Assembly: GCF_017094485.1 (NCBI RefSeq) | Contig: NZ_CP064786.1 | Span: forward strand, 2,294,001 to 2,358,000 | Length of the DNA stretch: 64,000 bases | DNA from: Natranaeroarchaeum sulfidigenes | Lineage (GTDB): Archaea > Halobacteriota > Halobacteria > Halobacteriales > Natronoarchaeaceae | Reading direction: 5' to 3' | In this document: one piece after another, positions 16,454-39,377 of the stretch | How positions within the stretch are numbered: the first letter of the stretch is position 1 | How the letters are laid out: each line of letters opens with the position of its first letter | The notes under the pieces: generated by a model | Databases searched by the model: none | The model's input: only the letters and a program-made list of their open reading frames with translations | Told to the model about the DNA's origin: nothing | Made by a program: the position numbers and the translations under genes

Positions 16454-17398
16454 ATGAATATAGGAACCATTCTGGACGAATTGGGGTTGGACGCGCTCTC
16501 ACCCGGCGGTCCAGACGACCCCGATGCCGGCCCACAGGAGCCGCTTGACGACGAGGACGAAGAGGAAGATGTCTCCGAAGAAAAAGAGACCAGGGAGTCC
16601 TCGTCATCCGGCGGGCTTTTCGGCGGCGGTGACGACGGTTCGAGCGAACTCACCGACGATATCGCCGATCTCGAACACGAACTCAGCGGGGTCCGTAATC
16701 AGGTCGAACAGAACAGTGCCAGCATCGATGGACTTGAAAGCGAACAGGTGAACGTCGGCGAACGACTAGATAGAATCGAAGAGCACAACGCGACCCTGCT
16801 CGGCGTCTACGATCACCTCACAGAGAGCGTCAATCCGTTTACGGGCGACTGGGAAGGCGATATCGAGCAGCCTGACGAGTCCGAATCGAAGTTCGGCGTT
16901 ATCCCCGGCCCCGAAGACGAGACTGAAAACGAGGATGCATGGGACACCGAGACGGAAGAGACCGATCCTGGCCAGTCCAGTGAACGTTCCCCGGAGCCGG
17001 AACCGACGTTCGAGCCAGCATCGGAACAACCGGTTCGAACGACAGCCACGGAGCCGACATCCACATCAACACGACCGCCGAACACCGATGACGGGCCGTA
17101 CCTGACGCGGTTTGCGGCCACCTACGCGACCGAAGTATTGCTCATGGAGTGGTTGACGATGCTCGTCGATCGCTCGGGTCAGGAAGGCGCACTGAAAGCG
17201 CTGGATCATTACGACCGTATCGACTGGATTAGCGAACCGGTCAAGCGGGATCTGGAGGTCATGCTCAGCGGCGCACACTGTGACCCCGATACGCCACCAC
17301 AAAACGATCTCAACACTGACGTTCACGATCGGAGTTTCAAATACATCGCCAGACTCTCACAGCAGGCACAACTGGAGCAGTCGGAGCAGGTGAGGTGA
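16454..17398 (+). CDS. arlCE: Archaellum switch-complex protein ArlCE (FlaC/FlaE fusion)
   Basis: The 314-residue protein has an acidic low-complexity N-terminus, a FlaC-like coiled coil at about 70-125 (LTDDIADLEHELSGVRNQVEQNSASIDGLES), an acidic Ser/Pro linker, and a C-terminal ArlD/E domain from about 210 (YLTRFAATYATEVLLMEWLTMLVDRSGQEGALKALDHYDRIDWI). In haloarchaea ArlCE and ArlD form the switch that couples chemotaxis output (CheF) to the motor at the ArlHI base, on the cytoplasmic side. It is the first gene of the operon; arlF follows after 6 bp. Confidence 0.93.
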   Translation: MNIGTILDELGLDALSPGGPDDPDAGPQEPLDDEDEEEDVSEEKETRESSSSGGLFGGGDDGSSELTDDIADLEHELSGVRNQVEQNSASIDGLESEQVNVGERLDRIEEHNATLLGVYDHLTESVNPFTGDWEGDIEQPDESESKFGVIPGPEDETENEDAWDTETEETDPGQSSERSPEPEPTFEPASEQPVRTTATEPTSTSTRPPNTDDGPYLTRFAATYATEVLLMEWLTMLVDRSGQEGALKALDHYDRIDWISEPVKRDLEVMLSGAHCDPDTPPQNDLNTDVHDRSFKYIARLSQQAQLEQSEQVR

Positions 17399-17404
17399 CG
17401 GTAC

Positions 17405-17851
17405 ATGGGATTCAGCACCAGTGCCGCGGTCGCAGTCGTCGCAATCGGTGCGCTCATCAGCCTCGGGTTGTTGTATCCCGCCGTTGAAGGCTCCACTCTG
17501 CAGATATCGGAAGCTAGTGATGACCGACAGGATCGTATCATCGACGCGAGGAACAGCGGTGTCGATATACACTCGGCGACCTATAACGATTCGGCCGACA
17601 GTTTGACGGTCCACGTGGACAACTCCGGTACAGTGACACTCGACGTATCGAAGACTCATCTCCTGATCGACGGCGAGCTTCCGGCCGAGCGGACGACGTG
17701 GGTCGAGGGCGACCAGAACCGCGACCTGTGGGTCGGCGGTGAGGGCCTCGAAATAGAGGTGCCGAACGTCGAGACGGCCCCGGACAGAGTCGTCATCGCT
17801 ACTCAGACCGGCGTACAGGATTCGACCGAAGATATCGAGGAGGAAACCTGA
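17405..17851 (+). CDS. arlF: Archaellum stator protein ArlF
   Basis: The 148-residue protein has an N-terminal membrane helix (TSAAVAVVAIGALISLGLLYPAVEG) followed by an extracytoplasmic beta-sandwich with NSGVDIHSATYNDSADSLTVHVDNSGTVTLDV and LLIDGELPAERTTWVEGD. This is the FlaF fold; in crenarchaea ArlF/ArlG tether the rotor to the S-layer. It has an acidic C-terminal tail. ArlG begins 1 bp after its stop codon, so the pair is translationally coupled, matching the ArlF-ArlG complex. Confidence 0.93.
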   Translation: MGFSTSAAVAVVAIGALISLGLLYPAVEGSTLQISEASDDRQDRIIDARNSGVDIHSATYNDSADSLTVHVDNSGTVTLDVSKTHLLIDGELPAERTTWVEGDQNRDLWVGGEGLEIEVPNVETAPDRVVIATQTGVQDSTEDIEEET

Positions 17852-17852
17852 C

Positions 17853-18326
17853 GTGGCGAGCGTTTCTGTGTCCCATCTGATCATCTTCATCGCCGCGCTC
17901 ACTGTGGCCGTCGGCGTTGCGACGACGCTGACCGTCAACGTCGAAAGTATGAGCGTCTCGTTAGACGAACGAGGTGACAGCGTTGCTCAGGACATCGAAA
18001 CCGACATCAGTATTATCAGTGACGCGGGAAGTCCCGACTCGATCTACTCGACCGATGAGGACGGCAACGGCGAAGTTACCCTCCTCGTGAAAAACACCGG
18101 GAATCGTCCGACACACACTGACAGCAGCGATCTCGACGTGCTGATCAACGGGCAGTATCAGAACGGTGTCGACGTCGACGTGATCGGTAGCGAAGGATCC
18201 ACGGTGTGGGGCGAAGGCGACGTTGTGCGGATGACCGTGAACGAACCCCTCGATGCCGGAGATCACCGGGCAACGGTGCGGGTCAGATCTAACGAAGATA
18301 CGCTACGGTTCTATCTGGATGAATAA
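17853..18326 (+). CDS. arlG: Archaellum stator protein ArlG
   Basis: The 157-residue protein begins at GTG 17853 (ASVSVSHLIIFIAALTVAVGVATTLT is the membrane helix). The external domain carries EVTLLVKNTGNRPTHTDSSDLDVLINGQ and WGEGDVVRMTV, parallel to ArlF. The family forms filaments capped by ArlF between membrane and S-layer. The start follows the arlF stop by one base; arlH begins 3 bp after its end. Length and topology are typical. Confidence 0.92.
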   Translation: MASVSVSHLIIFIAALTVAVGVATTLTVNVESMSVSLDERGDSVAQDIETDISIISDAGSPDSIYSTDEDGNGEVTLLVKNTGNRPTHTDSSDLDVLINGQYQNGVDVDVIGSEGSTVWGEGDVVRMTVNEPLDAGDHRATVRVRSNEDTLRFYLDE

Positions 18327-18329
18327 CTC

Positions 18330-19085
18330 ATGGTAAGCCTATACGAACTCGGACTCGAGGAGCGCGATCGGGTAAACCCGGCCTTCGGTGGCGGGTTCCC
18401 GAAAGGAAGTATCGTCCTGCTGGAAGGGAGCCACGGCGCTGGCAAGAGCGTGTTCGCTCAGCGGTTCTGTTATGGACTCTGTGAGAGCGATACGTACGTC
18501 ACCTACGTCTCCGCCGAACTGACCGCGGGTAGCCTGATAAAACAGATGGGGTCGATGGACTACGATATTGTCGATCATCTGCTCCGTGAGCAGTTGCTGT
18601 TCTTGCACGCGGATGTCGACACCAGAGATACGATCAACCAGCGACCGGGTCCCGAGGAAGCGGGTGGACGCGAACTCATCACGAAGCTCATGCAGGCCGA
18701 GACGATGTGGGAAAGTGATGTCGTCATCTTCGACGGATTCGACGCCATCCTGCTTCACGATCCCCACTACGAGGCGATCAGTGAACACGGCGACGCCGAC
18801 GATATCATGCAGAACATGATCACCTACTTCCGACAGATCGTCAACCAGGACAAAACGCTGATCCTGACCGTCAATCCGGATTCGCTGTCCCGGACGGCTC
18901 TCAGACCTCTCCGGAACGCCGCCGATGTCTACCTGTCACTGGAGATGGAAAGTGTCGGGAGCGAAGTCCGACGCAACATCGTCGTCAAGAAGTTCGCGGA
19001 GATGGGCAATCAGGTCGATGACAACATCGGCTACGCAGTCCAGTCCGGCCGCGGGATCACGATCGTGACACGGACGGTGGCCTGA
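18330..19085 (+). CDS. arlH: Archaellum motor ATP-binding protein ArlH (KaiC-like)
   Basis: The 251-residue RecA/KaiC-like protein has Walker A GSHGAGKSVFAQRF (about residues 33-46) and Walker B DVVIFDGFDAILL. In studied species ArlH binds ATP, hydrolyses it poorly, autophosphorylates and docks on the ArlI hexamer to license assembly and rotation. The C-terminal RRNIVVKKFAEMGNQVDDNIGYAVQSGRGITIVTR matches the family. It lies 3 bp after arlG and 1 bp before arlI in the compact part of the operon. Confidence 0.95.
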   Translation: MVSLYELGLEERDRVNPAFGGGFPKGSIVLLEGSHGAGKSVFAQRFCYGLCESDTYVTYVSAELTAGSLIKQMGSMDYDIVDHLLREQLLFLHADVDTRDTINQRPGPEEAGGRELITKLMQAETMWESDVVIFDGFDAILLHDPHYEAISEHGDADDIMQNMITYFRQIVNQDKTLILTVNPDSLSRTALRPLRNAADVYLSLEMESVGSEVRRNIVVKKFAEMGNQVDDNIGYAVQSGRGITIVTRTVA

Positions 19086-19086
19086 G

Positions 19087-20772
19087 ATGACGGAACTCGG
19101 AACTGCGAACCTGTCAGGACAACTTGGCGCGCTCGCACACGAGCATCCCCATCTCGACGAGCATCTCGAATACTATCGGGATATCCATGGGGAGTACCCG
19201 ATGTATACCGAGACGCTGGAGGACGAACACGAGGTCGCCAGACCGAACGTCATCTACCCCACCCAGAGTGAGCATGCAGTCTTCTGTCACGTTCACGGCG
19301 ATGTCGGCCAGCCGTTGACGTACTACGTTGTCGAACCGACACTCAATGCCGACGAACAGGCCGTTTTCGACGACGTGCGACAACGGATCCTCGAAAAGAG
19401 CGTCAACAAGCCCGCCCCGACGGACGACGAGCAGTTCATCGAGCACATCGACGAACTACTCGAGAGCGTCACACACGTCGGCGGGGTCGCGACCGGCGCG
19501 CTCCAGCAACTGCTCGGGACACGCATCACCGTCGCGCCCGACACCTACCAGAAGATCCGCTACCAGCTACAGCGCGATATCGTCGGACTCGGGCCGCTGA
19601 ACCCAGTCATGCAGGACCCACAGAACGAGGATATTCACGTCATCGGAACCGACCAGTGTTACGTCGACCACGGCACCTATGGGATGTTGCCTACCACGGT
19701 CGACTTCGGGACGCCCGCTGAGTTCGAGAACTGGTTGCGGAACATGGGCGAACGGATGGACACGCCGGTCAGCGACTCGAACCCGATCATCGACTCGACG
19801 CTGCCCGATGGGTCGCGTATCAACATCATCTACTCCGATGACGTGTCGGTGCAAGGCCCCTCGCTGACGATCCGACAGGGGGACGAGGTTCCGCTGTCCG
19901 TCCTCCAGATCACAAAGTGGGGGACGCTCTCGCCGAAACTCGCCGCCTACCTCTGGCTCTGTCTCGAAAACGAACAGACGGTCTTCGTGGTTGGCGAGAC
20001 CGCCTCGGGAAAGACGACGACACTGAACGCGATTACCTCGTTTATTCCGCGAGACTCGAAGATCTATACTGCGGAAGACACCGCCGAAGTCGTTCCACCA
20101 CACGATACCTGGCAACAGTTGCTCACTCGCGAGGGTCAGGGGGAAGACTCCAGTTCGGATATCGACCTGTTCGACCTGGTCGCTTCGGCGCTCCGATCTC
20201 GCCCTGACTACATCATCGTGGGCGAGGTTCGAGGTGCGGAAGGACAGATGGCGTTTCAGGCCGCACAGACCGGACACCCCGTCATGCTTACCTTCCACGC
20301 CAGCGACATCGTGTCGATGATCCAGCGCTTTACCGGTGAGCCGATCAACGTCCCCGAGACGTTCATGGACAACTGCGATGTCGCGCTGTTCCAGAACAGG
20401 GTCAAACAGGGGGACGATGTCTATCGGCGGGTTACCAGCGTTCAGGAGATCGAGGGATACTCGAAACATGACGGCGGTGTCGTGACCCAGCAGGCCTTCC
20501 GGTGGGATCCCCGCGACGACGAGATCGTCTTTACCGGGATGAACAACTCTCACGTCCTCGAAAACCAGATCGCGGAACTGCTCGGCTACGAGAACACCCG
20601 CGAGATCTACGACGAACTGGACCGACGTGCACAGATCGTCGAGCGCCTGATCGAAGCGGATGTCCTCGAATACGAGGAAGTCAACGATGCGATCGCGACG
20701 TTCCAGCGAGACGGGGTCGAGGCGCTGCCGATCGACCTGACCGGACTCACCGCATCGCCACAAGCAATCTAG
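19087..20772 (+). CDS. arlI: Archaellum assembly/rotation ATPase ArlI
   Basis: This 561-residue type IV secretion-like ATPase of the GspE/FlaI superfamily has Walker A VFVVGETASGKTTTLNAI at about 300-316, Asp box EDTAEVVPPHDTWQQLLTR, Walker B DYIIVGEVRGAEG and His box HPVMLTFHASDI. The N-terminal domain includes YQLQRDIVGLGPLNPVMQDP. It is the hexameric motor that assembles and rotates the filament beneath ArlJ. An unusual 116-bp gap separates its stop from arlJ, whereas arlF-G-H-I are nearly fused. Confidence 0.96.
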   Translation: MTELGTANLSGQLGALAHEHPHLDEHLEYYRDIHGEYPMYTETLEDEHEVARPNVIYPTQSEHAVFCHVHGDVGQPLTYYVVEPTLNADEQAVFDDVRQRILEKSVNKPAPTDDEQFIEHIDELLESVTHVGGVATGALQQLLGTRITVAPDTYQKIRYQLQRDIVGLGPLNPVMQDPQNEDIHVIGTDQCYVDHGTYGMLPTTVDFGTPAEFENWLRNMGERMDTPVSDSNPIIDSTLPDGSRINIIYSDDVSVQGPSLTIRQGDEVPLSVLQITKWGTLSPKLAAYLWLCLENEQTVFVVGETASGKTTTLNAITSFIPRDSKIYTAEDTAEVVPPHDTWQQLLTREGQGEDSSSDIDLFDLVASALRSRPDYIIVGEVRGAEGQMAFQAAQTGHPVMLTFHASDIVSMIQRFTGEPINVPETFMDNCDVALFQNRVKQGDDVYRRVTSVQEIEGYSKHDGGVVTQQAFRWDPRDDEIVFTGMNNSHVLENQIAELLGYENTREIYDELDRRAQIVERLIEADVLEYEEVNDAIATFQRDGVEALPIDLTGLTASPQAI

Positions 20773-20888
20773 TGGTTGACACGATTGTGCTGGCAGGTCT
20801 CTCAGGGACGGTGTCGCCCCGGCAGTCGAGGAATAACGTTTCATACCTGGGATACAATGGGTCGACAGGACGACCGTGACGGATATCA

Positions 20889-22631
20889 ATGAGCTCTGAA
20901 AGCGCAACAGCGACCAGCCGTAACGCGGAGGATGATTCCTCCGTCGAACTCAAGGAGGCGGTGCGATCGCTGTTGATGGCGTACGAGGGGATGGAGATGT
21001 CCATCCAGCGATATCTCCTCGTCATTCTGTTTCCCTCGGTAGTCTTCGGTATTACGGTTGCCATCCTCCCGTTTTTGCTTCCCGTGCCGGGGATCGCTAC
21101 CGGCCCATTCCTGATTCTTGGGCTCTTTCTTCCGTTCATCGCCCTCGTCTATCCGAAACTGCAGAACGACCGACAACAGAAGGAAGTGCGGGACCAGTTC
21201 CACCTCTTTATTACGCATATCACGATCCTCTCTACGACCAACATCGATCGTGTCGAAGTGTTCCGGACACTCTCGAAAGAGGAGGATTACAACGCTATCG
21301 CGACCGAGATGGGCCATATCGTCGCATTGATCGACACCTGGAACCTGAGTCTCGACGACGCCTGTCGGTTTCGCGCACGACGCGTCTCCAGTCCACTGAT
21401 GCAGGATTTCCTCGAACGGCTTGCCTACACCGTGGGAGCGGGCCAGCCCATGAGTGACTTTCTGATCAACGAGCAGGACAACATCCTCCAGCACTACAAG
21501 GTCCGGTATGAGAACGAGCTAGAACGGCTCAACGTCATCAAAGACGTCTACCTGTCGGTGATCAACTCGACCACGTTCGGCCTCGTCTTCGCGATCTTGC
21601 TTCCCTTCCTCATCGGTATCGACCCGATGATCGCGCTCTCTGCCGTGCTGACGCTGTATCTGTTCGTGCAGGTGACGTTCATTTACGTGATGAACAACGT
21701 CGCCCCGCAGGATCCGGTCTGGAGCCACTCCGACGATATCGCGCTGGAACGCAACATTCGGCTTCGGATCTCGATCATCGTTAGCATCGGACTTAGCCTC
21801 CTGTTGATGGCTCTGACGTATCTCGCGCTCGATGGCGTGTTGCCGGTCGGCACTGATCTCCCCGAGCCGATCTACATGGCGATTCCGTTCACGCCGCTGT
21901 TGATCAGCGGGCTCGTCATGCGCCGGGAGGAACAGCGGGTCAAAAACCGTGACGACGAGTTTCCCTCGTTCATCCGCGCGCTTGGCGCGGTCGAAAGTGT
22001 CAAACAGAGCTCGACGTCGTCGGTCCTCTCTTCGCTGCGCCGGAAGGACTTCGGCTCGCTTACGGAGACGATCAACAACCTCTATCTGCGGCTGGCCATG
22101 CAGATCAACTCGACGCTCGCCTGGAAGTACTTCGCTACCGAGACCGGTTCCTACCTGATCCAGCGCTTTAGCGACATGTACGTCGTCGGTCGGCGGATGG
22201 GCGGCGAGCCGATTCAACTTGGCGAACTCATCGAGAAGAACTTCACGCAGGTGTTGAACCTGCGACAGATGCGGACCCAGGAAACGGGGACGATCATCGG
22301 CGTGATCTACGGGATCACCGCGACGAGCACCTTCGCCTTCTTCGTCGGGCTCGAAATCGTCCGCCTGTTACAGGATATCTCCGGCGATCTCGAACTCGAT
22401 CAGGCTGGCCTCAGCGGCTTGCTCCACCCACAGGTGTACGATATTGACCAGGTTCGATTTTTCCTCTTTATCGCCATTCTGCTCAACGCTATGCTCTCCT
22501 CAATGATGATCCGCGTCATCGACCGGGGCCACTCCCTGAGCGCACTGAATCACTTCGTCGTTCTCGTCTGGATGAGCGTCATTATCGCCGTCCTGACGCG
22601 ATACCTGATGAACTCGCTGATCACGGTGTGA
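20889..22631 (+). CDS. arlJ: Archaellum platform membrane protein ArlJ
   Basis: The 580-residue polytopic protein has two GspF/TadC-like modules. The first holds the helix pair LLVILFPSVVFGITVAILPFLLPV / PFLILGLFLPFIALVYP and the cytoplasmic block DQFHLFITHITILSTTNIDRVEVFRTLS. The second holds FPSFIRALGAVESVKQSSTSSVLSSL. Three or four helices follow (IIGVIYGITATSTFAFFVGLEIV, FFLFIAILLNAMLSSMMIRVID, ALNHFVVLVWMSVIIAVLTRYL). It is the membrane platform that anchors ArlI and the archaellin filament. Normal length for haloarchaea; last gene of the operon. Confidence 0.95.
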   Translation: MSSESATATSRNAEDDSSVELKEAVRSLLMAYEGMEMSIQRYLLVILFPSVVFGITVAILPFLLPVPGIATGPFLILGLFLPFIALVYPKLQNDRQQKEVRDQFHLFITHITILSTTNIDRVEVFRTLSKEEDYNAIATEMGHIVALIDTWNLSLDDACRFRARRVSSPLMQDFLERLAYTVGAGQPMSDFLINEQDNILQHYKVRYENELERLNVIKDVYLSVINSTTFGLVFAILLPFLIGIDPMIALSAVLTLYLFVQVTFIYVMNNVAPQDPVWSHSDDIALERNIRLRISIIVSIGLSLLLMALTYLALDGVLPVGTDLPEPIYMAIPFTPLLISGLVMRREEQRVKNRDDEFPSFIRALGAVESVKQSSTSSVLSSLRRKDFGSLTETINNLYLRLAMQINSTLAWKYFATETGSYLIQRFSDMYVVGRRMGGEPIQLGELIEKNFTQVLNLRQMRTQETGTIIGVIYGITATSTFAFFVGLEIVRLLQDISGDLELDQAGLSGLLHPQVYDIDQVRFFLFIAILLNAMLSSMMIRVIDRGHSLSALNHFVVLVWMSVIIAVLTRYLMNSLITV

Positions 22632-22700
22632 TTGGACAGATCATTTAGATCGCCAACTATTATGGTGATTGGAATCGTTAAACTATATTGTGGTGATCCA

Positions 22701-22967
22701 ATGAGCGATACCGGTGGGAGGCCGAAACAACAGGAGTACGGTGAGGCTGAAATCAACGATCGCGGCCGTCTGACGATACCGAAAGCACTGCGAGACGATC
22801 TTCGACTCGATGGGGGGACGCGCTTTACAGTCCTTCGGGACGGTACCGAAATCAGGCTCGTCCGACAACTCCCCGAACTGGAGACCGTTTCGTCGGGCAA
22901 ATCACGCGACGAATGGGGGGAGGACGCGTTTCGAGATGCGGGTGAAGCGACGTTCGGGGGGCGATAA
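22701..22967 (+). CDS. AbrB/SpoVT-type antitoxin (VapB-like)
   Basis: The 88-residue protein has a swapped-hairpin AbrB domain: EINDRGRLTIPKALRDDLRLDGGTRFTVLRDGTEIRLVRQ. A C-terminal toxin-binding tail (WGEDAFRDAGEATFGGR) follows. It directly abuts the PIN-domain gene (stop at 22965-22967, next ATG at 22968), the classical antitoxin-first order. The dimer should bind the pair's own promoter and neutralise the nuclease. I chose ATG 22701 over the extended frame because AbrB homology begins after it and AT-rich DNA precedes it. Confidence 0.85.
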   Translation: MSDTGGRPKQQEYGEAEINDRGRLTIPKALRDDLRLDGGTRFTVLRDGTEIRLVRQLPELETVSSGKSRDEWGEDAFRDAGEATFGGR

Positions 22968-23414
22968 ATGCGGATACTCCCTGATGTCAACGCGCTCTCG
23001 ATCCAACTTATCGACGACCATCCGGGCCACCCGTACGTGGCGGAACAGCTCGTTCCGGCACTGCACGGCGAAGAGACGCTGTTGTTGTTCGGCTATCTTC
23101 CACTCCGAGTGCAATGGGTGCTTGAGGATCTCGGTCTGTCGACAGTCGATGCTCGAAACGCAGTGAGTTCGTTATTGCAGTATCCGGTGGAGTGTGTCGA
23201 CTCGACGCCAGACATTGTTCTCGATGCCTACGAAATCAGTGCAGAAAAAAACCACGACGTGTACGATTGCTTTTATATCGCGCTTGCACGTCAAGCAGAT
23301 GCTGACGTGATTGTTACGACGGACAGGGACTTCGAGGTCCTGTGTGAAGATGAGCAGTTCGAGTACACCAATCCTGTCCCCGAGGACGTGCTGTCGGAGT
23401 TCCACCAGGTGTGA
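22968..23414 (+). CDS. PIN-domain toxin (VapC-like)
   Basis: The 148-residue PIN protein has the first Asp in MRILPDVNALS, central helices, NHDVYDCFYIALARQAD with the third acidic position, and VIVTTDRDFEVLCED with the fourth. PIN toxins are Mg2+-dependent RNases, in studied cases cutting tRNA or rRNA. The second acidic position (usually Glu in helix 3) is unclear in the LPLRVQWVLEDLG stretch. The pair sits between arlJ and the opposite-strand arlD-like gene, interrupting an otherwise motility-only cluster. Confidence 0.83.
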   Translation: MRILPDVNALSIQLIDDHPGHPYVAEQLVPALHGEETLLLFGYLPLRVQWVLEDLGLSTVDARNAVSSLLQYPVECVDSTPDIVLDAYEISAEKNHDVYDCFYIALARQADADVIVTTDRDFEVLCEDEQFEYTNPVPEDVLSEFHQV

Positions 23415-23429
23415 CACCCACGTCCGACG

Positions 23430-23984
23430 CTACTCCTCGCTCATCTCGTCATCCACCGGGTCCTCGTGGTGGTCGTGACAGTAGTCGCTGTCACCGAGCG
23501 CGGGCCGGGTACACGGCTCGCCATCCTCATCGGTTGCCGCACACTGGCTGTCCTCGGGCACGCCGCCGTCATCACCGCCGATTCCGGCGTTCGAGTTGAC
23601 GCCGTTCTGTCCGAGGCGGAGCGTCGTCAGGTCGCGTTCGATGCTGTCGCCAGCGATGGCGGCGACGTATTCGAGTGATCGAGCGTGGCCCTCGTACGGC
23701 GTCTCCGCGAGCGCGTCGATACTCGTCTCGTCGCCGTCGTCGTCGTTCGAGAGCTCGTCGACCGAGAGCCCGCGCACGTAATCAACCATCTTCCGATAGA
23801 CCTCGCCGCTGATCCAGCCAGCATCTCTGTAGAATCGCAGGGAGCGGATCGCGCCGGTCGAACCGAACTCGTTGCCGAGATACCGTGCCCAGGCCATCGC
23901 AGTCACCTGCTCTGCTGCCGTCCCGTCGAGCGAGTCCAGATGGGGTGTGGAACTGCGCCCGGTCACGCTGTGTCGTTGGCTCAT
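23430..23984 (-). CDS. arlD: ArlD-like archaellum protein with C-terminal zinc-binding motif
   Basis: The 184-residue protein starts at ATG 23984 (the codon two before it is an in-frame GTG). Residues about 22-75 form an ArlD/E domain (AWARYLGNEFGSTGAIRSLRFYRDAGWISGEVYRKMVDYVRGL), matching the same domain in ArlCE. A linker leads to a Cys/His cluster near the C-terminus: Cys148, Cys158, Cys169 and His172/173 (QCAATDEDGEPC...DSDYCHDHH), which resembles a small treble-clef-like zinc finger. ArlD partners ArlCE in the haloarchaeal switch complex. It is convergent with the PIN toxin gene; a TATA-like AAAGTA lies about 30 bp ahead of it. Confidence 0.8.
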   Translation of the reverse strand: MSQRHSVTGRSSTPHLDSLDGTAAEQVTAMAWARYLGNEFGSTGAIRSLRFYRDAGWISGEVYRKMVDYVRGLSVDELSNDDDGDETSIDALAETPYEGHARSLEYVAAIAGDSIERDLTTLRLGQNGVNSNAGIGGDDGGVPEDSQCAATDEDGEPCTRPALGDSDYCHDHHEDPVDDEMSEE

Positions 23985-24353
23985 GCTCACTTACCCCGCC
24001 TACTCGTGGAGCTACTTTATCCCTTTCCCCAAATCACTACTTCTGTTCTATTCTGCCGCTGCACGCGTGCTGCCCGCTGTATTTGCCAGAATACTAGTCT
24101 CCCGTGTGATGAGCAGGGGAGGGTAGTGCACCTAATATATTTGGAAGGCCGGTCGCATGGCGGCGGACTCGTCTTCGGTACCGCCTGTCGGAACTCCGCC
24201 GCGTGCTGGACGCATACTCGAAGCGCGATATAAATTGTATAAACAAACTACCTTCTTGTGTAGGTATACATCTACAGCACCATACTATCATATTAGGAAC
24301 TTTTATTTCAATTTGACACGAAATAACATACAGACTACGGCCAGACACCAGCC
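23985..24353. other. Intergenic region between arlD-like gene and first archaellin gene
   Basis: These 369 bp contain no convincing gene. They hold the minus-strand promoter of the arlD-like gene (TATA-like element on the minus strand near 24013-24020). AT-rich DNA from about 24225 on has TATA candidates at 24227-24235 (GATATAAAT) and 24300-24307 (CTTTTATT) for the archaellin gene. An imperfect inverted repeat lies between them (TGTAG 24259-24263, CTACA 24272-24276). Confidence 0.6.
24300..24307 (+). promoter_or_regulatory. TATA box candidate of archaellin gene 1
   Basis: CTTTTATT is centred about 50 bp before the ATG at 24354, which would give a leader of roughly 25 nt. No strong Shine-Dalgarno motif is seen in that leader. 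Confidence 0.45.
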
Positions 24354-24965
24354 ATGGAGATCACCATACCAGACAGACCGGAGCGGCGTGCCCAGATCGG
24401 CGTCGAGACGCTGATCGTGTTCATCGCGATGGTGCTCGTCGCGGCGATCGCGGCGACGCTGCTTCTCAACACAGCCGGATTTCTCCAGAACCAGGCGTCG
24501 ACGACCGCCCAGGACGCCCAGGATCAGGTCTCCAATCAGGTACTGATCATCAGCTCGGTCGGCGAGATCTCAGAGGACGGCGGGGACAACGCCATCGGCG
24601 AGGTCCGCGTGAGCGTGATGCAATCACCCGGCGCGGGCGAGATCGACCTTGGCGGCTCCTCGGTCGAGTATGTCGGCCCCGACGGTCAGGAGACGCTGAT
24701 CTACGACGAGAGCCCCGATGTGGGTGAGTTCGGCGTCGAGGACGTCCGCAACGGCGATACCGTTCCCGTCCTCACCGAGCGCCAGGACCGCTACGTCATC
24801 AGCGTCGAGCTGACCGACGACGACACCAGCGATCTCCGCTATCTCGAACCGGGCGAGAGCGCGACGCTGCGGATCGTCACCCCCGCGGGCAGCGAGGCGG
24901 TGGAGATTCTGAATGTGCCGCAGTCGCTCAGTAGCTACGACGAGGGCGACGCGGTGCAACTCTGA
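24354..24965 (+). CDS. arlA1: Archaellin (archaellum filament subunit), short copy
   Basis: The 203-residue preprotein has a class III signal peptide: charged MEITIPDRPERRAQIGVETL with processing expected just before the Gln, then the hydrophobic VFIAMVLVAAIAATLLLNTAGFLQ core that packs in the filament. The globular domain carries VMQSPGAGEIDL, VEYVGPDGQETLIYD, VPVLTERQDRYVISVEL, LEPGESATLRIVTPAG and [18 protein letters not shown]-like ends. The -1 residue is Ala rather than the usual Gly. No N-x-S/T sequon is present. A second, longer copy follows. A U-tract terminator lies just downstream. Confidence 0.95.
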   Translation: MEITIPDRPERRAQIGVETLIVFIAMVLVAAIAATLLLNTAGFLQNQASTTAQDAQDQVSNQVLIISSVGEISEDGGDNAIGEVRVSVMQSPGAGEIDLGGSSVEYVGPDGQETLIYDESPDVGEFGVEDVRNGDTVPVLTERQDRYVISVELTDDDTSDLRYLEPGESATLRIVTPAGSEAVEILNVPQSLSSYDEGDAVQL

Positions 24966-24978
24966 GGCTGTATCGGAG

Positions 24979-24984
24979 TTTTTT
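24979..24984 (+). terminator. U-tract terminator after archaellin gene 1
   Basis: A TTTTTT run begins 13 bp after the stop codon of the first archaellin gene. This is consistent with intrinsic archaeal termination and with separate promoters for the two archaellin genes. Confidence 0.5.
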
Positions 24985-25154
24985 CGTGCACGAGCACACG
25001 CGTGACGCAGACCCGACTGAGCACGTCGCTCGTCGGAACCGAGTCAGTTGGCGCATAATCGAACGGTTCACGCCCTCTATAGCAATTCTCTCACAACCAC
25101 CTAATCAGCATGGGTGCGGGTTCGCTCCGGTCCTACTGGTGTAGCCTGTGGTTC

Positions 25155-25164
25155 TTTTTTATAC
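25155..25164 (+). promoter_or_regulatory. TATA box of archaellin gene 2
   Basis: TTTTTTATAC is a strong AT block in GC-rich DNA about 75-84 bp before the ATG at 25239, implying a leader near 50 nt. A purine-rich GAGGAT at about 25225-25230 could act as ribosome-binding site, unusual for the mostly leaderless genes here. Confidence 0.55.
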
Positions 25165-25238
25165 CCCTACTATGGATAGTTCAGAGGTCGTTCAACAGGC
25201 GACCCGCGAAAGCGAACCCAACGCGAGGATACACAACA

Positions 25239-26171
25239 ATGGAAATCAGCGTACCCGAATTCACACGCGACAACGATCGAGGTCAGGTCGGTATCGAGAC
25301 CCTGATCGTCTTCATCGCAATGATTCTAGTGGCAGCGATCGCAGCGAGCGTACTAATTAACACGGCAGGATTCCTGCAGAACCAGGCGAGCGAGACGAGT
25401 CAGGACTCCGAAGATCAGGTGTCCAATCAGGTGCTGATTATCAGTTCGATTGGTGAGGTTGCAGAGGTTGACGGTGAGGTTGAAAACGTTGAATTTGAGA
25501 TTGATGCTGACAGCGCTGATGCTGACGAGGCCGACTTGGAATACCTAAGTGGTGACTTCGACTTTGAGTCGGATGACGGCGACTTGATCGTCAGAAATGT
25601 AGATGAGGACGAAGAATTCGTCTGGACTGACGACACTGATCCCGTCACTGAAGGTGAAAGTATTGCTCTCCACGACGAAGTTGATTACAGTGATGACGAC
25701 GACATAGAGGTCGAATGGACTGATGACAGCACTGTGTGGGACTTCGGTACAGTTGACGATTCGTTCGACGATACGGAAACTGAGGAAGTGACTGTCGAAG
25801 ACGGTGAAAACCAGATCAGCGAGATCAGCATGACGGTCATGCAGTCGCCGGGTGCTGACGAGATCGACCTCAGCGGTGCATCCATCGAGTACATCGGCCC
25901 TGACGGTCAGGATACTCTGACCTACGAGGACGGCTTCGATGTCATCGGTACGCAGGACGAAGACGAAACTGCACCCGTTCTGACCCAGCGACAGGACCGC
26001 TTCACCATCGAGATCGGACTCGAAGAGGATGGAGAAGACCTCCGCTACCTCGAAGAGGGTGAAGATGCCACGGTTCGCATCACTACCCAGTCCGGTAGCG
26101 AGGCAGTCACCATCGTGAACGTCCCGCAGTCGCTCAGCAGTTACGACACTGGCGACGCAGTCGAACTGTAA
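25239..26171 (+). CDS. arlA2: Archaellin, long copy with acidic insertion
   Basis: The 310-residue preprotein starts [20 protein letters not shown]; cleavage is expected between Gly and Gln. The N-terminal helix ([29 protein letters not shown]) and C-terminal two thirds closely match the short archaellin. Between residues about 77 and 191 it has an insertion made almost wholly of Asp, Glu, Val, Ser and Thr, encoded by clearly AT-richer DNA (about 25467-25811). The insert would sit on the filament's outer surface. No N-glycosylation sequon is found. I take ATG 25239 rather than the open frame from 25110, because the signal peptide begins there. Confidence 0.93.
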
Positions 26172-26319: not shown

Positions 26320-26355
26320 TGGTGTCTGGCAAGTATGGACACTGAACTGGCATCT

Positions 26356-28464
26356 ATGAGTGACAGGATCCACGTACTCCATCTCGACGACAACGAGCAG
26401 TTTCTCGATGTCGTCTCTACCTTTCTGGAAGAGGACAACGACGATATCGACGTGACGACCGAAACCGAGGCGAGCGAGGCGCTGTCGGTGTTGCAAAACG
26501 GCGCGGGCGTCGACTGCGTGCTCAGCGACTACCGGATGGGACCGACCGACGGTGTCGACTTCCTGCGGGAGGTCCGCGCGGTCGACGAGCGGTTGCCCTT
26601 CATTCTGTACACCGGGAAGGGGAGCGAGGCGGTCGCCAGCGAGGCGATCACACAGGGCGTGACCGACTACTTGCAGAAGGAACACTCTGCGGATCAGTAC
26701 GACCTGCTGGCCAATCGGATCCGGAACGCGGTGGATCGCGCGCGAGCGCAGGAGAGCCTCGAAGAGCGAGAAAGTATGTTGACCGCGCTCCACGACGGGA
26801 TGCGATCGCTGATGCTGGCCGAGACGCGGGAGGATATCGCCGGGGAGACCGTCGAAATCGCGGTCGACGTGCTGGAGTTGCCCTGGATCGCGGTCTACCT
26901 GCTCGACGAGTCCGCAGGGGTGTTGCGCCCGGAGGCCTTTATTTCGGATCTCGACGACGTGACCGAGGAGCCGCCGACGTTTTCCGGCGGCGAGAGTCTG
27001 GCGTGGGACGCCTTCGTCGACGGCGAGACCAGACACCACGAGGACGTCAGCGAGATGGAGGGCCACGACGCCGAGTCCGTGTTGACCAGCGAGCTGATCG
27101 TTCCGCTGGGGGATCACGGCGTGTTACTTGCGGGGACGACCGGCGACGACCCGCTGGAGGCGGTGACCGGCGAGTTCGTCGAGACGCTCGGAGCGAACGC
27201 GGAGGCGGCGCTGGACCGCGCCGAACGCGAGGCCGTGTTACGCGAGCGCGACCGGAAACTCGAAGAACAGAACAGCCAGCTCAAGCGACTCAACCGGATC
27301 AACACGGTGATCCGGAACATCGATCAGGCGCTGGTGCAGGCCTCGACGCGCGAGGAGATCGAACAGGAGGTCTGTGACCGGCTCGTAAACGTCGACCTCT
27401 ACGAGTTCGCGTGGATCGGCGGCTACAACAATATCAACGAGACGATCAGCCCGCGGGCGAAAGGCGGTACCGAGGGGAACTATCTGGCGAGCATCGATCT
27501 CGACAGCGAGTCCAACCCGATCCAGGACGCGCTCCACGAGGGCGAGGTCGGTATCGTCCAGAACATCTTCGAAGACGAGAGTATGGGCAGCTGGCGCAAG
27601 CAGGCGTTAAAAAGCGGCTTCCGATCGGTGGCGACGGTGCCGCTGACCTACGAGGGGGCCGTCTACGGACTCCTGCAGATCTACGCCAGCCAGCTGGATA
27701 CCTTCGACGGGGATACCCGTAGCGTTCTCGCGGAGCTTGGAGAGACAATTGGCTACGCGATCAACGCGATCGACCGCAAGGAGGCGCTGCTGACTGACAG
27801 CGTGGTTCAGGTCGAGTTCCGGATTCCGAACTCAGAGGATTTCCTGTACACCCTCTCGAAACGGACCGGCAGCAACGTCGACCTGCGAACGATCCTGCCC
27901 CAGTCCGACGGCTCGTATCTGATCTTCTTCTCGATCACCGATGCCGAAGTCGAGGACGTCCTCGCGTCCGCCGAGGAGTCCCTGTCTGTCTCCGAGGCGA
28001 AACTCATCAGTGAGCGCAACGACACGGCGCTGCTCGAGTGCCGGACAACTGACACGAACATCGCGACGACGGTCGCGGATCACGGCGGCGTCCCGCGGTC
28101 GGTTTCCGCCGATCCGAACGGCGGCCGAGTCGTCGTCGACCTGCCACAGACCGCGGACGTGCGATCCTTCGCCGAACGACTGACCGGCGAGTATCCGTCC
28201 GTCGAGTTCGTCGCCCGCAGAGAGCGGACCAGCGATACCGGCAGCAGACGCTCGTTCCGCGAGCGCCTCGACGACCACCTGACTGACCGTCAGCGGGAGG
28301 TGCTCGAAGCGGCCTACTTCAGCGGCTACTTCGAGTGGCCCCGGGAGAAAAACGGCGAGCAGATCGCCGAGGCGCTGGGCGTCGCCCCGCCGACGTTCAA
28401 CCAGCACCTTCGTGCTGGAGAGCGAAAACTGTTCGAGACACTCTTCGAACCGGACTCCGTCTAA
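26356..28464 (+). CDS. Response-regulator/GAF/BAT-type transcriptional regulator
   Basis: This is a protein of about 702 residues. The receiver domain (first 120 or so) has the acidic pair in VLHLDDNEQF, the phospho-acceptor Asp in VLSDYRMGPTDG, Thr in FILYTGKGS and Lys in YLQKEHS. Two GAF-type sensor domains follow (about 135-290 and 315-475), then a BAT dimerisation region (about 475-620) and a C-terminal HTH_10 (LTDRQREVLEAAYFSGYFEWPREKNGEQIAEALGVAPPTFNQHLR). The last part is the bacterio-opsin activator type. No kinase domain is present, so a separate histidine kinase or a GAF ligand must signal. It sits directly after the archaellins; a role in their control is inference only. Confidence 0.88.
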   Translation: MSDRIHVLHLDDNEQFLDVVSTFLEEDNDDIDVTTETEASEALSVLQNGAGVDCVLSDYRMGPTDGVDFLREVRAVDERLPFILYTGKGSEAVASEAITQGVTDYLQKEHSADQYDLLANRIRNAVDRARAQESLEERESMLTALHDGMRSLMLAETREDIAGETVEIAVDVLELPWIAVYLLDESAGVLRPEAFISDLDDVTEEPPTFSGGESLAWDAFVDGETRHHEDVSEMEGHDAESVLTSELIVPLGDHGVLLAGTTGDDPLEAVTGEFVETLGANAEAALDRAEREAVLRERDRKLEEQNSQLKRLNRINTVIRNIDQALVQASTREEIEQEVCDRLVNVDLYEFAWIGGYNNINETISPRAKGGTEGNYLASIDLDSESNPIQDALHEGEVGIVQNIFEDESMGSWRKQALKSGFRSVATVPLTYEGAVYGLLQIYASQLDTFDGDTRSVLAELGETIGYAINAIDRKEALLTDSVVQVEFRIPNSEDFLYTLSKRTGSNVDLRTILPQSDGSYLIFFSITDAEVEDVLASAEESLSVSEAKLISERNDTALLECRTTDTNIATTVADHGGVPRSVSADPNGGRVVVDLPQTADVRSFAERLTGEYPSVEFVARRERTSDTGSRRSFRERLDDHLTDRQREVLEAAYFSGYFEWPREKNGEQIAEALGVAPPTFNQHLRAGERKLFETLFEPDSV

Positions 28465-34846: not shown

Positions 34847-35509
34847 ATGGAGCGCAGCGTTGCCCTCGATCGAGCCGAGGAAATCGTCGACACCGTCGAG
34901 GAAGAGCAGATGCCCGTCCCCGTTCGTGAGGTCTGGGTGTACGGTGACGTCGCGCTCGGACTCGATCCGATCGACCGGCTCGACATCTACGTCACCAAGG
35001 ACATCCTGCTGGAGGACGAGCCGGAACGGGAAGTCAAGTTCGTCGACTCCCACGGCATCGAGGGCGTCGGCCGAACGGTCCGGGCCGACTGGGCCGCGGA
35101 GTACCCCGAGCACCTGCGGGCGAACACGAACGGCCACGCCGCACCCGAACAGTGTCTCGCCGCCCACCTCCTTGACGACGACGACGAGCCGATCCATCTC
35201 GAGGTCTGTAACGCGAGTTTCGAGGACAACGTCACCCAGCGCCTGCAGGGCGCGAAGGCCCGTGGCGCGTGGGAACAGCTACTCGATCCCCGAGGTGCCT
35301 GTCTGTGGGTCGGCGACGGGGCAGGGGAGGGGCGGCGAAGCAAGGACGCCCTGGCGAAACTCAGGGACGGCGAACTCCCATTCCCCACGCTTCCCGAGGC
35401 GCTGACGATGATCGGACTGGACGAGAACGAGGCGGACGAAGCCGCTGAAGCCGTTCAAGCCTGGCGAACCGAACAGGAAGGCACGACGGTTCGCGGCGAC
35501 ATCGTATAG
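34847..35509 (+). CDS. Conserved haloarchaeal protein (DUF7095-like)
   Basis: The 220-residue soluble protein has an N-terminal block VPVREVWVYGDVALGLDPIDRLDIYVTKDILL that resembles the nucleotidyltransferase-like G[DS]-type start of a beta strand and turn. Then come EYPEHLRANTNGHAAPEQCLAAHLL, CNASFEDNVTQRLQGA and a C-terminal helix-rich AKLRDGELPFPTLPEALTMIGLD. I recall this as a haloarchaea-only family of unknown function (DUF7095). It is convergent with the MinD-like gene, whose stop is adjacent. Confidence 0.75.
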   Translation: MERSVALDRAEEIVDTVEEEQMPVPVREVWVYGDVALGLDPIDRLDIYVTKDILLEDEPEREVKFVDSHGIEGVGRTVRADWAAEYPEHLRANTNGHAAPEQCLAAHLLDDDDEPIHLEVCNASFEDNVTQRLQGAKARGAWEQLLDPRGACLWVGDGAGEGRRSKDALAKLRDGELPFPTLPEALTMIGLDENEADEAAEAVQAWRTEQEGTTVRGDIV

Positions 35510-37558
35510 CTACTCCTCGTCGTCCGTGTTGGTCACCTTGTCCATCGTCTCCTTAAACAGTGCGTTGATCTCGTCGTCCTCGTCCTCTTCCTCGTCGAGG
35601 AGACTCTCGGGATCGGAAGAGACGCCCTCGAACATCTCCTCGTCGTCACTCACGTCATCGTCGCGATCATCGTCCAGTGCATCCTCCGCCGAATGGTCGT
35701 TCGGTGTTGACTCTGCTTGCTCGACCGGACCCGTCGACTGCTCATCTGAGCCGTCCTCTCTCTGCTGGCCGGAGTCAGGAGCCGAGCTGTCGGACAGTTC
35801 GTCGTCGTTGAGGTCGTCCTGGAGCTCACGCACCGCTTCGTCCACCGGTGAGTTACCTCTCTGGTCGTCAGAGTCAGGCGATCCCTCAGCCACGTTGCCA
35901 CTATCGTCAGCCGTGCCGGAATCAGCTGCTGTTGGCTCCTCGCTGGCTCCGTCGCCGGTGTCAGTCCCACTCCCGTTCGTTTCGTCGGCCGCCTCGGTCT
36001 CCTCCCCGCCGAAACCGGGTAGCTCGAAGCCGCTGTCGTCGTCATCGGTATCGGCCACCTCCTCGTCGGCTGCTCCGATCTCCGACCCCTGATCGGCCGC
36101 TGATCCAGTGTCGCCCTCGTCGTTTCCGGCCTGGCGGTTTCCTGCTCTCTGGTCGTCGGCCTGTTTGCTCTCGGTAACCTCGCCCGTGTCCTCGAATTCG
36201 AACTCGGCAGCCGATGGCTCCGTATCACGCGTCTGCTCGTCGCCCTCTGGCTCTCCATCGCCATCGGCGGTAGATATCGAGTTCGCCGCTGGTTCGGTTG
36301 TCGTCTCGCTATCATCGCCAGTCTTGTCGTGGTCGCGTTCCGCAGTCGGCTCCTCCGCTACCGTATCTGCCGATGCCCCGTCCGAGAGGGTCCCCTCGCT
36401 CTCCGCAGTCTCGGGAGACGATTCGAGCTTTACCGTCTCGTCATCTTCGACGCGTTCGCCCTCCTCGACGCGCTCGCCTTCCTGTCCCGATGGCTCACTT
36501 TGTTCCGCGGACTCAGCAGCGTCCCCATCACCCGTGGGCGCAGCTGTCGCGTGATCCGTCGGTTCCCCGTCCGGTGGATCGCTCTCGGCCGAATCCGCTG
36601 AAACACCGGATCGCTCCGGATCGGCGGGGTCAGACACGGATGACTGATCGGCATGTGCCTCCTCGACATCCGACTCTCCGGATACATCGGCGGTCGAACC
36701 TCCGGCGGTGGTTTCGGTCGCCGATTTTGACGCGTGGGCCATTTCCTCATCTCCGGACTCGCCGTCTCCCCCCACTGCTGTCTCGGTCGCCGCTCGACTC
36801 GAATCGGAGCCCGGTTCGTCCGCGCTCGCTGGCAGGACCGGCCCAGTCAGTCCACCAGCACCAGTGAGACTCGACGCCAGCTGCCAGTAGACCATTGCGG
36901 CATCGCTGTCGGGATCATAGCGGAGTAGCGACTGGCCAGCCCCCGCGGCTGCCCGTACCGCATCGTCCTCGGGAACCACGGCGAGTACGTCGGTGTCGAG
37001 CTGTTCGGTTACGCTGACGATGTCGATCGCCTGTACCGAGGGAACTCGCGAGAGGACGGTCCCGCGGATCCGACAGCCGTGATACCGCACTACAGTCGCC
37101 GCCTCCGCGGTCGCCGCCAGATCGTCCTCGGCCGATCCCGAGACGAGGATCACCTCGTCGGCCAGTTCGAGCCCCATCGCGACGTCGACGCCGCCACCGT
37201 GGCCGAGATCGAGCAAAACGACATCGTAGCGCTCGCGTAGCGTCGTCGCCGCTCGGACGAGCCGGTGGGTACGGACGTCAGTCGGTGCGGGAGCCTCGTT
37301 TCCCGAGGGAAGGTACTCGACGCCGTGCGATCCCGTCACCATCGACTCGTCGATCGTGGCATCCCCTCTGAGCACCGACCGGACGCCGTCGTCGCCCTGC
37401 ACATCGATGATCTCTTCAATGCCGTCGCTATCGAACGCCGCATCGACGACTGCGACGCGTGTCGCCGTTTCGGCCATCGATACCCCCACTGATACTGCGG
37501 TGGTCGTCGTTCCGATCCGGTCGCGTCCCCCCAGAAACGCGAACACTGTTCCTGTCAT
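35510..37558 (-). CDS. MinD/ParA-like protein with degenerate P-loop and long acidic tail
   Basis: This is a 682-residue protein. The first 245 or so residues follow the MinD/ParA fold: MTGTVFAFLGGRDRIGTTTTAV, VAVVDAAFD (Walker A'), YDVVLLDLGHGGGVDVAMGL (Walker B) and VILVSGSAEDDLAATAEA. The deviant Walker A consensus KGGxGKTT reads GRDRIGTTTT here, so both lysines are gone and ATP hydrolysis is unlikely. The following 440 residues are low complexity, rich in Asp, Glu, Ser, Thr and Gly, ending ALFKETMDKVTNTDDEE. Haloarchaeal MinD4, which positions archaella and chemoreceptors, also has a long C-terminal extension; whether this is a relative is inference. I use the ATG complement at 37556-37558. 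Confidence 0.75.
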   Translation of the reverse strand: MTGTVFAFLGGRDRIGTTTTAVSVGVSMAETATRVAVVDAAFDSDGIEEIIDVQGDDGVRSVLRGDATIDESMVTGSHGVEYLPSGNEAPAPTDVRTHRLVRAATTLRERYDVVLLDLGHGGGVDVAMGLELADEVILVSGSAEDDLAATAEAATVVRYHGCRIRGTVLSRVPSVQAIDIVSVTEQLDTDVLAVVPEDDAVRAAAGAGQSLLRYDPDSDAAMVYWQLASSLTGAGGLTGPVLPASADEPGSDSSRAATETAVGGDGESGDEEMAHASKSATETTAGGSTADVSGESDVEEAHADQSSVSDPADPERSGVSADSAESDPPDGEPTDHATAAPTGDGDAAESAEQSEPSGQEGERVEEGERVEDDETVKLESSPETAESEGTLSDGASADTVAEEPTAERDHDKTGDDSETTTEPAANSISTADGDGEPEGDEQTRDTEPSAAEFEFEDTGEVTESKQADDQRAGNRQAGNDEGDTGSAADQGSEIGAADEEVADTDDDDSGFELPGFGGEETEAADETNGSGTDTGDGASEEPTAADSGTADDSGNVAEGSPDSDDQRGNSPVDEAVRELQDDLNDDELSDSSAPDSGQQREDGSDEQSTGPVEQAESTPNDHSAEDALDDDRDDDVSDDEEMFEGVSSDPESLLDEEEDEDDEINALFKETMDKVTNTDDEE

Positions 37559-37678: not shown

Positions 37679-38479
37679 CTACTCGACGACGCCAGTCGTG
37701 ACGAAAAAAGGAACGACCTCGCGGCGTCTGTACTCTCCGGTCTGCATCTGCTCGATTACCGCTCGACCCATCTCGCGCCACGCGCTCCGGAGCCGGTCGT
37801 AGCCCCCATCGGTCAGCCCGCCCGCCTGCATCTCGGCGCGGTCTGCGGCCAGTCCGTCACCGGTCGCCTTCCGCTTTGCCGCGTCGAGGTCACGCTGGGA
37901 GTACGGCGCGGAGACGATCCGTTCGTGATCGTAACGGGCTGTCGTGACGTTGCCCAGTCCGGCTTGCTCGAACAGCGCGGCAGTCGGGCTCCCCCCGAGC
38001 GTGATGTCGGTCCCGACGCCGTCGAGGTAGGCCTCTCTCGCGTGGGCAGCGAGTTTCGCCTCGGCCTCGACGCTCGACTCGACCGTCACCGCGGCGTTGT
38101 CCGGTTCGACCGCCGCGACGCGCTTGCTCGCTACGCGCGCGAACTCCTCGATCGCGGCGGCGGGGTCGGAGAGGTTGATCAACAGCGCCTGACAGACGAC
38201 CAGATCGACCGCATTATCGGGGAAGGGCAGGCGAGTCGCGTCCCCGGCGACCGGGCTGGCGTGCTCGCGGGCGGCATCGAGCAGGGCCGTGTCGGCGTCC
38301 ACGCCCAGCACCTCGACGCCGCTTTCCTCGGCGAGCACGCGGGAGAGCTCGCCGGTTCCACAGCCGACGTCGAGGATCGAGTCACAGTCCTGCAGGTCAA
38401 GGGCCGCAAGCGCCTGCCGTGAGTCGTCCCACATCCCTGCGCGGGTGTCCCGCAGGTACGACTCGGAAAACTCTCGCAC
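37679..38479 (-). CDS. Class I SAM-dependent methyltransferase
   Basis: This methyltransferase of 266 residues starts at GTG 38479 (REFSESYLRDTRAGMWDD). It has motif I SILDVGCGTGELSRVL, acidic EVLGVDADTALL, motif II-like DATRLPFPDNAVDLVVCQALLIN and motif III-like VASKRVAAVEPDNA. A TTTTTTAG-type AT block on the minus strand at about 38502-38509 gives leaderless spacing to this start; the longer frame extends into DNA without homology. The substrate is not evident: the C-terminal half (TLGGSPTAALFEQAGLGNV) resembles small-molecule methyltransferases of the Methyltransf_11 type. Confidence 0.82.
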   Translation of the reverse strand: MREFSESYLRDTRAGMWDDSRQALAALDLQDCDSILDVGCGTGELSRVLAEESGVEVLGVDADTALLDAAREHASPVAGDATRLPFPDNAVDLVVCQALLINLSDPAAAIEEFARVASKRVAAVEPDNAAVTVESSVEAEAKLAAHAREAYLDGVGTDITLGGSPTAALFEQAGLGNVTTARYDHERIVSAPYSQRDLDAAKRKATGDGLAADRAEMQAGGLTDGGYDRLRSAWREMGRAVIEQMQTGEYRRREVVPFFVTTGVVE

Positions 38480-38546
38480 GGGTGGAACTGGACCGGGCAG
38501 GCTAAAAAACGGGACGATCCGGAAGCGTGCTGTTCGATGGGCCGGC

Positions 38547-39377
38547 TCAGAGTCGGCGTTCCGCGAAGTCCCGCACGGCACCGAGCGTCCCCGCGCTAAG
38601 TTCGGTCGTGTGTCGCCACTCCTCGGTGATTCCATCGTGGCGGTAAAACCGGTCGTGATCGCCACAGCCAGTACCGTGCCAGGAGGTCTCGCTGCCCGGT
38701 TCGGCGGCCCCGGCGTACGCGGTTGCAAAGGGCGTGACTTCGCTGACATCCTCGTCGACTCGCGTCACGCTCCCGAGGTCGTGATCGCAACTGCCTTCGA
38801 CGACTGCGCCGACTGCCTCGTCGTCGACCAGCGTGTGCAACACCTCGTGGATCGCGATATTTCGCGTCACGTCCCGCCCGTCCCAGCGTTCGGTCGCGCC
38901 GAGATTGGCGATGGTCACCGTCCCGTCGCCGCCCCGTGTGACATCCGCCCTGGCCGTGCCGTAGCCCAGGTCCGGATTGAACGGCTCGCGCGCGAGCAGT
39001 AGATGTGCCGTGTTGGCGCTCCGGGCCTCGCGGTCGTCGAGCAGGTCGCCGAACGCCGTCAGCAGGTCGGAGCCGTCGAGGCCGGTCGGCGGATCGACCC
39101 CCGGTTCGGCATCGAGACTCCAGTCGGCGTCGTCGATCGTCTTGGACTCACGCTCGATGTGTGCTGTGAGACGCTCCAGCGCGACGCCGATCGCCGCGTA
39201 CGCCTCCAGCGCCGGTCGGTCCCAGCCGTTCCAGCGGTCGCCAGTCGCCGCCGGGACAACGCGAACGCGTAGTGTGGCGGTAGCGGGTGCGCTCGCGGTG
39301 CCGACGGCGAGTGCGGACGCCGAGGTGCCCACCGCCGCGAGCATCGCCCGTCGGCCTGTGACCGGGGACCTGGTCAT
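38547..39377 (-). CDS. Tat-exported protein with HExxH metallopeptidase-like motif
   Basis: This 276-residue exported protein has a Tat signal MTRSPVTGRRAMLAAVGTSA ending near APATATL. The mature part has TRNIAIHEVLHTLVDDEAVG, where HEVLH is a gluzincin/metzincin-type zinc motif. It is followed at a distance by GSCDHDLGSVTRVDED and then GTGCGDHDRFYRHDG. A third ligand (Glu or His) in either block could complete a protease site. I do not recognise a named peptidase family, and secretion as a surface or extracellular protease is inferred. The codons and GC are like the surroundings. Confidence 0.7.
   Translation of the reverse strand: MTRSPVTGRRAMLAAVGTSASALAVGTASAPATATLRVRVVPAATGDRWNGWDRPALEAYAAIGVALERLTAHIERESKTIDDADWSLDAEPGVDPPTGLDGSDLLTAFGDLLDDREARSANTAHLLLAREPFNPDLGYGTARADVTRGGDGTVTIANLGATERWDGRDVTRNIAIHEVLHTLVDDEAVGAVVEGSCDHDLGSVTRVDEDVSEVTPFATAYAGAAEPGSETSWHGTGCGDHDRFYRHDGITEEWRHTTELSAGTLGAVRDFAERRL

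Follow-up and report, generated by a model that had tools for sequence, protein, structure and literature searches.

A MinD4 paralogue of haloarchaea with a degenerate P-loop and a long acidic tail, apparently maintained by selection

MinD4 is the protein by which haloarchaea position their swimming motor at the cell pole. MinD4 of Haloferax volcanii oscillates without needing its Walker motifs, which its polar caps do require, and truncation of its tail impairs motility; archaeal MinD has no known counterpart of bacterial MinE (PMC11621097). That oscillation continues even with mutated Walker motifs raises the question of what purpose the ATP site in MinD4 serves. A natural, selection-kept MinD4 paralogue without the hydrolysing residues, which is what we propose here, would offer a ready-made way to find out which functions of MinD4 are independent of ATP cycling, and would also be a candidate partner for archaeal MinD.

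The window, as we call the whole 64,000-nucleotide stretch of Natranaeroarchaeum sulfidigenes DNA that was analysed, encodes on its minus strand a 682-residue protein (35510..37558; ATG at 37558, stop at 35510), referred to below as pseudo-MinD. Its start agrees with that of the homologues, which also start at this residue. Residues 1–236 (36851..37558, minus strand) form a MinD-like domain, and the profile and structure matches indicate that its fold is that of MinD. The archaeal MinD model TIGR01969 matches residues 7–233 (E 2.2e-28) with 99.1 bits, below the curated cutoff of 201.75, where MinD2-type proteins with intact motifs also fall. PDB 1HYQ is matched with an E-value of 3e-19 by the domain on its own, improving to 2.4e-39 when the family profile is used. 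A single-sequence AlphaFold2 prediction gave a mean pLDDT of 33, too low for a usable structure model.

We compared the P-loop, GGRDRIGTTTT (residues 10–20; 37499..37531, minus strand), with that of 27 canonical MinD4-type proteins, which carry S10, K12, G13, G16, K17 and T18, the form in the relatives being SGKGGVGKTTT. In pseudo-MinD the signature lysine K12 is replaced by arginine, G13 by aspartate and the catalytic lysine K17 by threonine, and the deviant Walker A signature of the ParA/MinD family, KGGxxK[S/T] with its signature and catalytic lysines, is absent from it. An earlier note, made from the sequence alone, had described a MinD/ParA-like domain lacking both lysines, and the alignment bears this out. 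Its further statement that the Walker A’ and B regions are kept stands for D39, the first switch-I aspartate, and for D117 in the Walker B region (residues 113–119; 37202..37222, minus strand), where D117 and G119 vary in neither the degenerate nor the canonical group; it does not stand for residue 41, the position of the second switch-I aspartate, which is alanine.

Nine orthologues, all with intact open reading frames, were found among 394 genomes of the order, in seven of the nine genomes of the window’s family (f1) and two of the three of a sister family (f10). A first search, which covered 295 genomes from the order, had found close relatives in f1 only, and the two f10 members came to light through the neighbouring DUF7095 gene. 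When a profile of the nine was run over the 394 genomes, they scored 316–357 bits and the next match 200 bits, a gap that is partly by construction as the nine trained the profile, and that leaves room for a very divergent degenerate member elsewhere; the next-best matches that were inspected carry KGGVGKTT. A contig scan using the domain returned a distant Halomonas protein (24% identity) as its sole match.

The catalytic lysine is missing from all nine orthologues and the signature lysine from eight (one, L013, keeps it). The signature lysine, the GG step, the switch-I stretch LGMAN and D149, K152 and R159, positions that we take to lie in helix 7 from knowledge of MinD structure, are replaced in most or all of them, and G16, T18, D39, D117 and G119 are invariant. 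Such shared degeneracy at a shared locus is more than chance. Sequencing error as the source of the lysine loss was ruled out by the identical P-loop of a second genome of the same genus (G046) and by the nine intact orthologues, which, together with the dN/dS values below, also rule out a lone pseudogene. Because both lysines, the GG step, LGMAN and the helix-7 positions are gone, pseudo-MinD has very probably lost ATP hydrolysis, in agreement with the earlier proposal of a non-hydrolysing member.

Loss of hydrolysis need not mean loss of binding. On the model of E. coli BcsQ, ATP might still be bound without either lysine; the protein would then be a stable nucleotide switch that hydrolyses slowly or not at all, with the ATP-bound form as its regulated state. 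BcsQ, a polar ParA/MinD-family protein (RGGVGTT), has arginine and threonine at the same two positions (PMC9178275), and BcsQ structures are among the matches of our family profile (6ybb, E 8e-8); the five residues invariant in the nine would fit such a switch as well. Yet the losses extend to the glycine that follows the signature position, to part of switch I and to several helix-7 residues, and we regard a BcsQ-like switch as possible but rather doubtful.

Next, we placed the protein in a tree that included the four Haloferax MinD proteins. The Haloferax genus was recognised because it matches the CetZ1 of solved structure at 99% identity, and which of its proteins are MinD1–4 was decided from tail lengths and the order of the genes rather than from names, following published locus-tag order (PMC11588486). 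The nine orthologues form one clade (support 100/99) inside the MinD4 group, which, with Haloferax MinD4, is split from MinD1, MinD2 and MinD3 with support 97/94. The MinD4 relationship suggested at the outset is thus upheld, and the clade is not one of active-looking ATPases: every member lacks the catalytic lysine. Removal of the P-loop, switch-I and Walker B columns left the degenerate clade at 98/94; without these columns MinD2 rows land among the canonical MinD4 groups, and rooting and deeper branching are unsure. Because these genomes also have a MinD4-type gene of the canonical kind (L040 in G000, L109 in G026), pseudo-MinD is, on this tree and gene content, a paralogue and not the MinD4 orthologue. 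The canonical MinD4-type proteins of the f10 genomes G026 (L109) and G038 (L110) are tail-less, with 249 and 253 residues. G026 also encodes another MinD/ParA-like protein (L134; G026:C1:1985439-1985987; 248 residues), which matches Pfam AAA_31 and MipZ-like and whose P-loop, ATGGAGATRTS, likewise lacks both lysines.

The remainder of pseudo-MinD, residues 237–682 (35513..36850, minus strand), is an acidic low-complexity tail. The 437 residues beyond residue 245, close to the 440 first reported, contain 34% D+E and 4% K+R with a net charge of about -127, a composition from which we infer disorder. Tail length beyond the domain varies from 112 to 461 residues across the nine orthologues. Despite these very different lengths, a motif A-x-F-[KQ]-x-x-M lies 17–38 residues before the C terminus in all nine, as against none of 37 canonical MinD4-type tails, and it occurs in at most 0.0004 of shuffled tails. 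In the window protein it reads ALFKETM, within the conserved region of residues 660–675 (35534..35581, minus strand), and the segment could be an amphipathic docking helix.

Selection was assessed with simple Nei-Gojobori estimates on single pairs. The dN/dS of the domain was 0.18 (g1), 0.26 (g3) and 0.18 (f10) in the archaellated genera and 0.30–0.47 in genus g2, which is without archaella, compared with 0.13–0.24 for canonical MinD4, 0.13 for DUF7095 and 0.21 for the neighbouring methyltransferase; residues 241–600 of the tail gave 0.63. These values indicate purifying selection on the domain and argue against a pseudogene.

We then considered the locus. Pseudo-MinD lies between a SAM-dependent methyltransferase gene upstream on the same strand (37679..38749, minus strand) and a convergent gene for a DUF7095 protein (PF23378; 34847..35509, plus strand), a family not mentioned in the literature searched. 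The two neighbours flank it in this order in all nine loci, the only neighbourhood common to them. In the window the stop codons of DUF7095 and pseudo-MinD are directly adjacent (35507-35512), with zero intergenic bases. Genus g2 (L084, L085, L070, L071) has a glycosyltransferase-like open reading frame between the methyltransferase and pseudo-MinD, or DUF7095, even where pseudo-MinD has been lost. As methyltransferase and DUF7095 genes are direct neighbours without a MinD gene in several other families (e.g. L086, L087, L093, L096–L098), pseudo-MinD appears to have been inserted between two genes that were already paired. In a tree built from both flanking genes f1 and f10 come together (support 95/96), which implies one insertion, then vertical inheritance and independent losses of the gene in G078 and in G006.

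The archaellum genes lie at 16454..26171 on the plus strand, with the locus edges 9–19 kb from pseudo-MinD, in line with the 9–20 kb given previously. Pfam matches and an archaellin search identified arlCE (16454-17398), an arlG-like gene (17853-18326), arlH (18330-19085), arlI (19087-20772), arlJ (20889-22631) and archaellins at 24354-24965 and 25110-26171, all on the plus strand. The second archaellin-family protein (353 residues) has two PF01917 stretches and stands beside the normal archaellin at 24354-24965; several such copies occur in the same-genus genome. Right after the archaellins comes a Receiver-GAF-BAT-HTH_10 regulator (26335-28464), possibly of the archaellum; its counterpart in the same-genus genome is 96% identical and occupies the corresponding position.

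Proximity in the window alone was rejected as proof of a link, since it fails in G054 and G062, where arlJ and the archaellum operon are on another contig than pseudo-MinD. The arrangement is looser in G046, as in the window, and tight in both f10 genomes (G026 and G038), where minD2, archaellin, arlCE/G/H/I/J, DUF7095, pseudo-MinD and methyltransferase are lined up over about 15 kb and arlJ is about 100–140 bp from DUF7095. In the five g2 genomes we found neither ArlJ nor archaellins, and CheW is kept; three of the five retain pseudo-MinD, and the only within-genus losses (two) and the highest dN/dS values both belong to this genus, a pattern that agrees with partial dependence on the archaellum and is suggestive only. 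The archaellated G010 yielded no DUF7095 and no member-level profile match. Overall, pseudo-MinD is present in six of seven archaellated and three of five non-archaellated genomes, numbers too small for a test. The archaellum connection raised earlier is supported in part, by the f10 operon and the g2 losses and relaxation; the three g2 genomes that keep the gene, the separate contigs of G054 and G062, and G010 speak against a role confined to the archaellum.

A role unrelated to motility is conceivable, in the envelope or in another process shared with the constant methyltransferase and DUF7095 neighbours, which alone accompany pseudo-MinD everywhere, including in genomes without archaella. 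We consider such a role unlikely, as the neighbouring pair exists without MinD in other families, MinD being the later insertion, and as it is the genus lacking archaella that shows the losses and the relaxed selection. Another idea, to which we give lower weight again, is a split MinD4, in which the catalytically dead paralogue would form a heteromer with canonical MinD4 and contribute the tail in trans: the pseudo-MinD proteins of G026 and G038, encoded next to the archaellum operon, have tails of 179–285 residues where the canonical protein has none. Functionless decay of a MinD4 duplicate would account for the fast divergence (34–56% identity between f1 genera vs 69–73% for DUF7095) and for the two losses and raised dN/dS of g2, but is very improbable because domain dN/dS is 0.18–0.26 in archaellated genomes, near the values of MinD4, DUF7095 and the methyltransferase, and the nine frames are intact and the C-terminal motif conserved.

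Altogether, these comparisons support a paralogue of haloarchaeal MinD4 that has kept the MinD fold and acidic tail, has probably lost its ATP-hydrolysing centre once and appears to be maintained by selection. Most likely it belongs to the MinD4 positioning system as a fixed component that does not cycle; that a MinD4 relative might work without an ATP cycle is plausible because the oscillation of H. volcanii MinD4 is independent of its Walker motifs and truncation of its tail impairs motility. Our preferred account, held tentatively, is that a hydrolysis-deficient paralogue serves that system as a scaffold or partner without cycling itself. The hydrolysing centre would have been lost in the common ancestor of the two sister families, after which selection maintained the gene. 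The remaining MinD surface would be the contact face for canonical MinD4 or for the cargo of MinD4, the tail and its conserved A-x-F-K-x-x-M helix would dock a partner, and pseudo-MinD would scaffold or dampen the placement of motility or chemosensory machinery, a context that we infer, with no ATP cycle run. The altered helix-7 and switch-I surfaces could equally mean that pairing with MinD4 has been lost.

Three described proteins from outside the MinD4 group invite comparison. McdA of cyanobacteria is ParA-type and lacks the signature lysine (SGGQGKT), but it keeps the catalytic lysine, which pseudo-MinD lacks too, and is a strong ATPase (PMC9178275). BcsQ of E. coli and other enterobacteria is a MinD/ParA homologue at the poles in which both Walker A lysines are naturally lost and replaced, as here, by R and T (PMC9178275). 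Its role is in the secretion of cellulose, together with BcsR and BcsE; no acidic tail has been described for it, its neighbours are other and the sequence similarity is only distant. Neither BcsR nor other cellulose secretion (bcs) genes were found among the 20 Pfam-annotated neighbours of our locus. TadZ/CpaE proteins, which act in polar pilus placement, are ParA-like, some with an atypical Walker A, and position the machinery of a type IV-like filament at the cell pole; they offer a lead, compared here at the level of the superfamily. Within the MinD4 group, MinD4 of Haloferax volcanii (HVO_0322) belongs to the same MinD clade and likewise joins a MinD domain to a long acidic C-terminal tail. 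That tail ends in a short hydrophobic tip, GFFSRFLG; some of the orthologues have a similar one (GLLGRLFD in L014), which is absent in g1 and f10. Haloferax MinD4 has KGGVGKTT and scores above the TIGR01969 cutoff, whereas pseudo-MinD has a degenerate P-loop, carries the extra A-x-F-K-x-x-M motif and exists as a paralogue beside a canonical MinD4-type gene.
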